Assembly: GCF_025150745.1 (NCBI RefSeq)
Contig: NZ_CP102282.1
Location: 1-64,000, forward strand
DNA length: 64,000 nt
From: Eubacterium ventriosum
GTDB lineage: Bacteria; Bacillota; Clostridia; Lachnospirales; Lachnospiraceae
Reading direction: 5' to 3'
In this document: positions 52,208-61,148 of the stretch, one piece after another
How positions within the stretch are numbered: the first letter of the stretch is position 1
Layout: the number at the start of each line of letters is the position of its first letter
Program-made: the position numbers and the translations under genes
Notes under the pieces: model-generated
The model's database searches: none
What the model was told of the DNA's origin: nothing
Seen by the model: only the letters and a program-made list of their open reading frames with translations

Positions 52208-52304
52208 AGTTTCTTCCTCCGTACATAACTAAATACTATCTTTAGCCTTCATTCTAACCTTTATCTTATAATATAGTTTGTATATTTTCAATGGCACTGT
52301 TTTA

Positions 52305-52486
52305 AATTCCACGCAGAAATTTTTATAAGCAAACAATAGGCAGAGATTCGAAATTTTGCGAGCATAGTGTAAGTGCAAAAGTAACTGTTTGAGCCATAGG
52401 CGAGTTTTACTTTTGCACTTACAATAGACGGCAGAGCAAAATAAGAAATCTCAACGTGTTTGCTGTAAAAATTTCTGCGTGGAATT
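52305..52486. repeat. Long palindromic element with conserved core, copy 1
   Basis: A 182-bp near-palindrome. Outer arms of 20 bases (52305-52324 and 52467-52486) are perfectly complementary. An inner hairpin pairs GTAAGTGCAAAAGTAA with its complement near 52410-52424. Between them are strands such as GCAAACAATAGGCA, TTTTGCGAGCATAGTGTA and GAGCAAAATAAGAAA that recur in the copy at 60540-60772, while both stems differ in sequence. It fills much of the 501-base gap between glpK and spoIIQ; nothing else was recognised there. Confidence 0.85.
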
Positions 52487-52708
52487 ATAACATATGATTG
52501 AAAATATCAAAAAAAGTGCTACCACGTATTTTTCAGGTACATGATAGCACAATCTATTATAAACAACAGGTACGGATTTTAGAAAATCATTAGAATAATT
52601 GTTTATGATTTTCCTTTTTTAACCCTGTTGCCTGCTGTCACAAAAGTGAGCAGCTTTTAATATTTTCTTTTGTATACCTTATTGTATGCACTTATTCCGG
52701 TTTTGTGA

Positions 52709-60539: not shown

Positions 60540-60772
60540 GATGTTTGCGAAAATAATGTATTCCCGGTATGCGACAGATTTTTCTGCAAGCAAACACGTT
60601 AATTTTCTTATTTTGCTCCGCCGCCTATGGTACAGCGAAAAACTAAACTCGCTCCGCTTGGACAGTAGTTTTATCGCTGTACACTATGCTCGCAAAATTA
60701 CGAAAATTTGCCTATTGTTTGCTTGCAGAAAAATCTGTCGCATATCCTATCTGCATTGTTTTCGAAAACATC
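60540..60772. repeat. Long palindromic element with conserved core, copy 2 (in the ileS leader)
   Basis: A 233-bp near-palindrome. Perfect 26-base arms (60570-60595 and 60717-60742) flank a core that, read on the minus strand, matches the copy at 52305-52486. The inner hairpin is GTACAGCGA...TCGCTGTAC. An outermost weaker pairing GATGTTT...AAACATC closes it. It lies between the T-box terminator and the ileS ribosome binding site, so it is transcribed into the ileS mRNA. Confidence 0.85.
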
Positions 60773-60852: not shown

Positions 60853-61148
60853 GCTCCCGCCCTGTAAAGGACGAAAGCCTGTATTTTCGTTAACCACCTT
60901 TTACAGCATACGCAGGATTTCTCCTTTAATATGTGTTCCCTTTAACGGTGGATACCGTCAGCGCCTACTAAACTTTATACGTTCTTTGGGCTGCAACTCC
61001 AGAGTGATGTTCATATACCTGCTACTTGTATTCGGCTTCCACCTTATCCGAACTCTCTATAACGTTCACTATGCATTATTTATGCAAGGCAACTACTGTC
61101 TCTATCAACGCTTTTATTATTTTATTGTCCTTTTGGACTTTTTCTTAC
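60843..61148 (-). ncRNA. T-box leader (Ile specifier) of ileS
   Basis: Read on the minus strand: stem I with the AGAGAG-type bulge (61048-61060) and GGTGGAAGCC. The specifier region GAACATCACTCTGGAG has ATC, an isoleucine codon, at 61006-61008. The T-box sequence AAAAGGTGGTTAACG lies at 60888-60902, slightly diverged from the usual AGGGTGGNACCGCG. The terminator AGGCT...AGCCT (about 60851-60880) is followed by TTTTTATTT. Uncharged tRNA-Ile would pair with the specifier and the T-box bulge, favour the antiterminator and allow ileS transcription. Confidence 0.88.

Follow-up and report, generated by a model that had tools for sequence, protein, structure and literature searches.

Two copies of a palindromic element were found in the window, i.e., the whole 64,000-nt stretch of Eubacterium ventriosum DNA that was analyzed (GCF_025150745.1, NZ_CP102282.1, forward strand), at positions 52305-52486 and 60540-60772, as placed by the initial annotation. 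Copy 1 lies on the plus strand. Its 132-nt core of nested stems and conserved unpaired strands (52331-52462), aligned with 29 other copies from the same genome and one from a relative, is enclosed by a left outer arm (52305-52330) and a right outer arm (52463-52486) complementary to each other, and carries the tip motif ACTGTTTGAGCC..GGCGAGTTT (52384-52407, by pattern match). BLAST of the sequence against its own reverse strand gave a whole self-complementary extent of 52282-52507, weaker beyond the arms. Copy 2 lies on the minus strand, with its core at 60591-60720 (placed by BLAST match and alignment) and, in element orientation, mutually complementary left and right outer arms at 60721-60744 and 60568-60590. 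Its full extent (60540-60772), including patchy outer complementarity, was delimited from the fold, the arm alignment and the empty site in congeners, and has a T-box leader on one side and ileS on the other. This T-box leader upstream of ileS (60864-61117, minus strand, E=2.2e-15) scored 70.3 bits, below the Rfam gathering score of 93, and was therefore missed by the default scan.

The two copies shared 78% identity over 146 nt (BLAST, E=6.5e-23) and folded far below shuffled sequences (z=-13.2 and -12.4, none of 200 shuffles equaling either). Both carried the four strands singled out by the initial annotation, identically ordered, and the three helices it had named were unlike in sequence between copies and retained their complementarity, as read from the two sequences. 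No Rfam family matched anywhere in the window at the curated threshold. Lax Rfam searches with three elements returned sub-threshold matches only, chiefly to plant and animal microRNA families, the best of them (E=0.002) involving an unrelated family of plant microRNAs, and searches of the open-access literature found nothing on the element.

In the genome of origin (2,856,089 bases in one contig), BLAST with a window copy gave 49 match rows. Full copies numbered 30, after removal of two false matches among 32 obtained with a regular expression, and were accompanied by nine partial or deleted copies (L030-L038), several of which retained both arms around a deleted centre; a tenth partial candidate (L039) looks like chance and was rejected. 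According to crude ORF calls, all full copies of this genome lay between ORFs. Over three sets of copies, after removal of linked orthologues and of rows whose flanks were short, the same crude calls placed 56 elements in sense and 35 in antisense to co-directional neighbours (p=0.035), and convergent settings (42) exceeded divergent ones (20).

A covariance model (R1), proposed in the initial annotation as a means of finding further copies, was built and searched across the taxonomic family and a class sample, and matches were found in other genomes. Of 397 genomes in the family, R1 matched 46 at E<=0.01 and 33 at E<=1e-5, counts that include the genome of origin and in which weak matches may be partly chance. 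Within the genus, two of 22 other species matched by BLAST, each with one diverged full copy, and 4 to 56 copies were present in 7 of the 11 genomes of genus g96. In the class sample, 11 of 391 genomes matched at E<=0.001, including six from other families; in each of these six the one match that was read had mainly the tip in common with the element. A longer sequence pattern matched 29 stretches in named genomes, 28 of them titled Lachnospiraceae, Lachnoclostridium, Blautia or Eubacteriales, and all four tested among these 28 matched the model. Phages and plasmids searched with one window copy gave no match. Short-pattern matches in one viral contig and one Sulfurimonas contig were attributed to chance, as neither matched the model at E<=1.

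Neighbouring copies or tips, separated by 0.2-2.5 kb, were often noticed in a head-to-head arrangement, minus then plus (L112, L072, L087, L080, L142, L158, L172, L115, L116, L319, L321 and L326), and one locus (L154) showed the reverse arrangement. In two Blautia assemblies, the spacers between paired copies (L142, 1189-1472; L158, 1135-1430) had common ends, lay in opposite orientation and differed in their middles. At L116, an integrase-like ORF was located between the two copies, a single occurrence.

Mobility of the element was indicated by the ends of its copies and by empty sites. In genomes G264, G413, G318 and others, near-identical copies had their arms in common and then diverged, giving sharp ends; the copies of G389 were part of a larger repeat. 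Direct repeats abutted the ends of two of the four core-bearing copies of G264 (10 and 9 bp), and lay close to the ends of three of the six copies of G413 (8-9 bp, AT-rich and partly palindromic). They were absent beside the other copies, and none was made out at the window copies. The end sequence of G264 occurred 50 times, against 5 for a control (<=3 mismatches allowed), partly in the form of short palindromes of 59-111 bp with an incomplete or missing core, which made up 4 of the 12 loci that were read.

The initial annotation had suggested looking for empty and filled sites between strains, and such sites were found between species. A copy of G413 (L218), bordered by an imperfect direct repeat, corresponded to an empty site in G425 (L274) with flanks 99-100% identical. 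An empty counterpart also existed for L107, which has lost its own right end, and at L066 three species were empty and G425 held a core-deleted copy. Insertion into a pre-existing palindrome was discarded as the main idea, as the empty sites read contained none. At the site of copy 2, the T-box leader ran directly to ileS without the element in seven of the nine congeners read, and for copy 1 the distance between flanking genes was shorter in several congeners, which, on distances only, fits an empty site. In the other two of the nine congeners (L356 and L358), a different tandem palindromic repeat was located between the leader and ileS. Two pairs of orthologues from G413 and G425 (L221/L242 and L229/L251) were identical over about 340 nt, covering core and flanks; the wider flanks of L221/L242 differed, which may reflect a recent exchange between species.

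No autonomous partner was retrieved with end patterns, either in G264 or in three genomes, and no facing pairs of end patterns 0.5-6 kb apart (<=1 mismatch) were found in three genomes. ORFs read beside and between copies appeared host-like by eye, with no mobilizer among them. The possibility raised in the initial annotation, that the copies are the ends of a known transposon, thus found no counterpart in these limited end-pattern searches.

The core alignment comprised 31 sequences (30 from the genome of origin and one from a relative), for which RNAalifold gave 41 pairs. In agreement with the covariation claimed from the two window copies, 23 of the 41 pairs had changed on both sides, against a shuffle mean of 11.9, and none of 500 shuffles reached 23. 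Sliding the partners by 1-3 columns left only 6 to 10 two-sided pairs, a comparison in which the true structure has the advantage of being derived from the same alignment. Strongly conserved strands were AAACAATAGGCA/AACGTGTTTG, GCGAGCATAG/GGCGGAG and the tip ACTGTYTGAGC/GCGAGTTT. The arms were unlike between copies, weak common motifs being restricted to about 20 nt from the core. Their complementarity was specific to each copy, with a mean score of 28.3 within copies and 10.2 when a left arm was paired with the right arm of another copy. At 5-30 nt from the core, complementarity exceeded the 99% null in 29 of 29 copies; above the 95% null were 16 of 29 at 30-60 nt, 3 of 29 at 60-90 nt and none at 90-120 nt. 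L017 was excluded from these arm statistics since its right arm is replaced; by eye, the replacement to the right of the core (from 1635) resembles the end of an insertion sequence.

Changes in the arms were followed in orthologous insertions of g96, found by BLAST of flanks and aligned as eleven sets, in which blocks had changed on both sides. Over 10 comparisons, three of them on one locus, 41 of the 270 columns paired in both species were compensatory, and one-sided changes were common, with 90 further columns pairing in one species only. Among columns that differed (11 comparisons), pairing held in 126 of 226 within species versus 49 of 226 across species. One set (L227) went the opposite way (6 of 16 within versus 7 of 16 across), and two sets had no differences. 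Mismatches in the arms showed no preference for G.T over A.C (47:41), while core stems leaned to G.T, with 24:10 in a stricter count and 36:11 in a laxer one from which near-duplicates (>97%) had been dropped. The difference between core and arms was not significant when both were counted with one script (24:10 versus 47:41, Fisher p=0.10), and reached p=0.0095 with the laxer core count. Model-aligned mismatch counts from other genera (80:7 and 87:26) were set aside, as the structure model itself favours G.T. A strand-specific requirement for the core is likely from the 36:11 ratio and the stricter 24:10, and would fit recognition as either RNA or single-stranded DNA.

Loops were also altered. 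Of 145 distinct cores outside the genome of origin (152 rows minus seven repeated sequences), 22 contained perfect helices of at least 11 bp at positions that are looped in the consensus, in excess of the 99% cross-copy null; 16 of these 22 came from g96, some being orthologues and not independent, and pairing of related species raised that null to as much as 17 bp. In all 30 copies of the genome of origin, the longest such helix was 7 bp. At L226, the longest helix measured 21 bp in G413, 16 in G425, 17 in G427 and 6 in G422, and the G413 copy held a tract without counterpart in its orthologues that matched its own opposite strand. Template switching brings a tract of one arm into agreement with the opposite arm, and this pattern was seen in the L226 tract and in the 22 of 145 cores. 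Judging from the sequences, templating within the copy would be the simplest reading of the rewritten loops, while conversion between paralogous copies could be their source. Template switching is described, in the portion of PMC8794818 available, as a cause of multi-base compensatory changes that creates and maintains hairpins. The element resembles the hairpins of that portion in its multi-base compensatory changes and probable stem repair by arm-to-arm copying, and differs from them in being a mobile repeat rather than an RNA gene, with conserved loops seemingly erased as well.

REP and REPIN sequences are 20-40 bp palindromes of genomes that also encode a RAYT. By description, and within the available accounts of these repeats and their RAYT transposases, the element is similar in forming dispersed intergenic palindromes but greatly exceeds them in size, has a core of several stems, and is bordered by direct repeats at some copies. 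It also resembles, by description only, the BOX, RUP and SPRITE repeats of Streptococcus pneumoniae, small interspersed structured repeats in the available text of PMC3049150. The element was judged to be of a MITE-like kind, with differences from known MITEs. It is small, dispersed and multicopy (30 full copies here, 4 to 56 in g96 genomes) and bears terminal inverted repeats, its arms being complementary in 29 of 29 copies and its ends common among copies of G264 and of G413. Bacterial MITEs, as the available part of PMC10969869 presents them, share with it a small size, lack of coding capacity, dispersion and inverted terminal repeats, have short direct repeats such as were seen beside some copies of the element, and are likewise predicted to give stable stem-loop transcripts; QMITE2, for example, combines repeats of 7-9 bp with ends of 23-29 bp and a core of 113-145 bp. 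Unlike the MITEs presented there, the element has ends that vary between copies and genera, a conserved core and tip, and arms that change in concert, and no parent insertion sequence was found for it.

On balance, the element is probably a non-autonomous, protein-less, MITE-like palindromic mobile element of about 180-250 bp with its arms, with a strand-specific hairpin core and hairpin-templated arms. Trans-acting machinery would move it and make a short duplication, and would need the core or the tip to be single-stranded. Once inserted, the hairpin would behave as a quasi-palindrome at the replication fork, where template switching would transfer a mutation in one arm to its partner, so that arms would drift in sequence with their complementarity kept. 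In copies free of mobility selection, conserved loops would be rewritten into perfect helices. Because of arm-to-arm copying and drift, covariation would be largely mutational in the arms, while mobility selection would keep the core.

Hairpin-templated mutation is the best account of the joint arm change, the arm mismatch ratio and the rewritten loops taken together, although the arms would also remain paired if structure were selected for in each copy. Such selection would be expected of a structured RNA, whether a cis-regulatory RNA, a small RNA or a ribozyme, a reading that we consider unlikely. The conserved unpaired strands, the covariation, the G.T preference of core stems (36:11) and the mild excess of sense orientation (56:35, p=0.035, on crude ORF calls) speak in its favour, but it fits poorly with up to 56 copies per genome at unrelated genes, with the lack of the element in most relatives, with arms devoid of G.T preference and loops erased in some copies, and with no Rfam family reaching threshold in the window. 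The initial annotation had taken conserved unpaired strands with compensatory stems as the mark of a structured RNA or of a hairpin recognized in single-stranded form. The apparently undescribed family, its covarying stems, its conserved unpaired strands and its mobility were borne out, while the step from compensatory stems to RNA was weakened by the 47:41 ratio in arms, the blocks changed on both sides and the loops turned into helices. Covariation is here no proof of a working RNA.

Two further alternatives concern the way in which the element moves and the origin of its arms. A single-stranded hairpin read by an HUH or tyrosine-type enzyme, for which structure and tip matter and ends are free to drift, would account for a tip that recurs in 15 of the 398 phylum genomes with bodies and ends that differ by lineage. 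HUH enzymes are not known to leave a duplication, and the short direct repeats at some copies point instead to a staggered double-strand cut; no such gene was noticed among the ORFs read by eye beside copies, and this alternative seems improbable. It is still harder to credit that a single host flank was copied in inverted form, during insertion or later, to give the long arms, with a neighbouring terminator partially mirrored on the opposite side. Four loci (L024, L013, L016 and L011) do show a terminator-like stem on one side and its partial or whole mirror on the other, and 16 of 29 copies exceeded the 95% null at 30-60 nt, but the signal fell to 3 of 29 at 60-90 nt and to none at 90-120 nt. 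Moreover, the weak inter-copy motifs of the inner 20 nt indicate that the arms are partly the element's own, and the G264 end sequence occurred 50 times against 5 for the control. A broader view, put forward tentatively and thought rather doubtful, would place the element in a phylum-wide superfamily of mobile hairpins with one conserved single-stranded tip (ACTGTYTGAGC/GCGAGTTT), in which the mover would read the fold more than the ends and template switching would keep drifting ends complementary. The tip pattern occurred up to 37 times per genome in the 15 genomes of the phylum, while a control pattern gave none among the matches listed.

Compensatory base changes are commonly taken to come close to proving that an RNA is functional. 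The element provides many orthologous copies in which covariation seemingly arises largely by DNA copying within the hairpin, and the comparison of G.T with A.C mismatches offers a simple internal control that could help to calibrate covariation-based RNA discovery. With this family, a major gut lineage gains a mobile element that is present in high copy and apparently undescribed.
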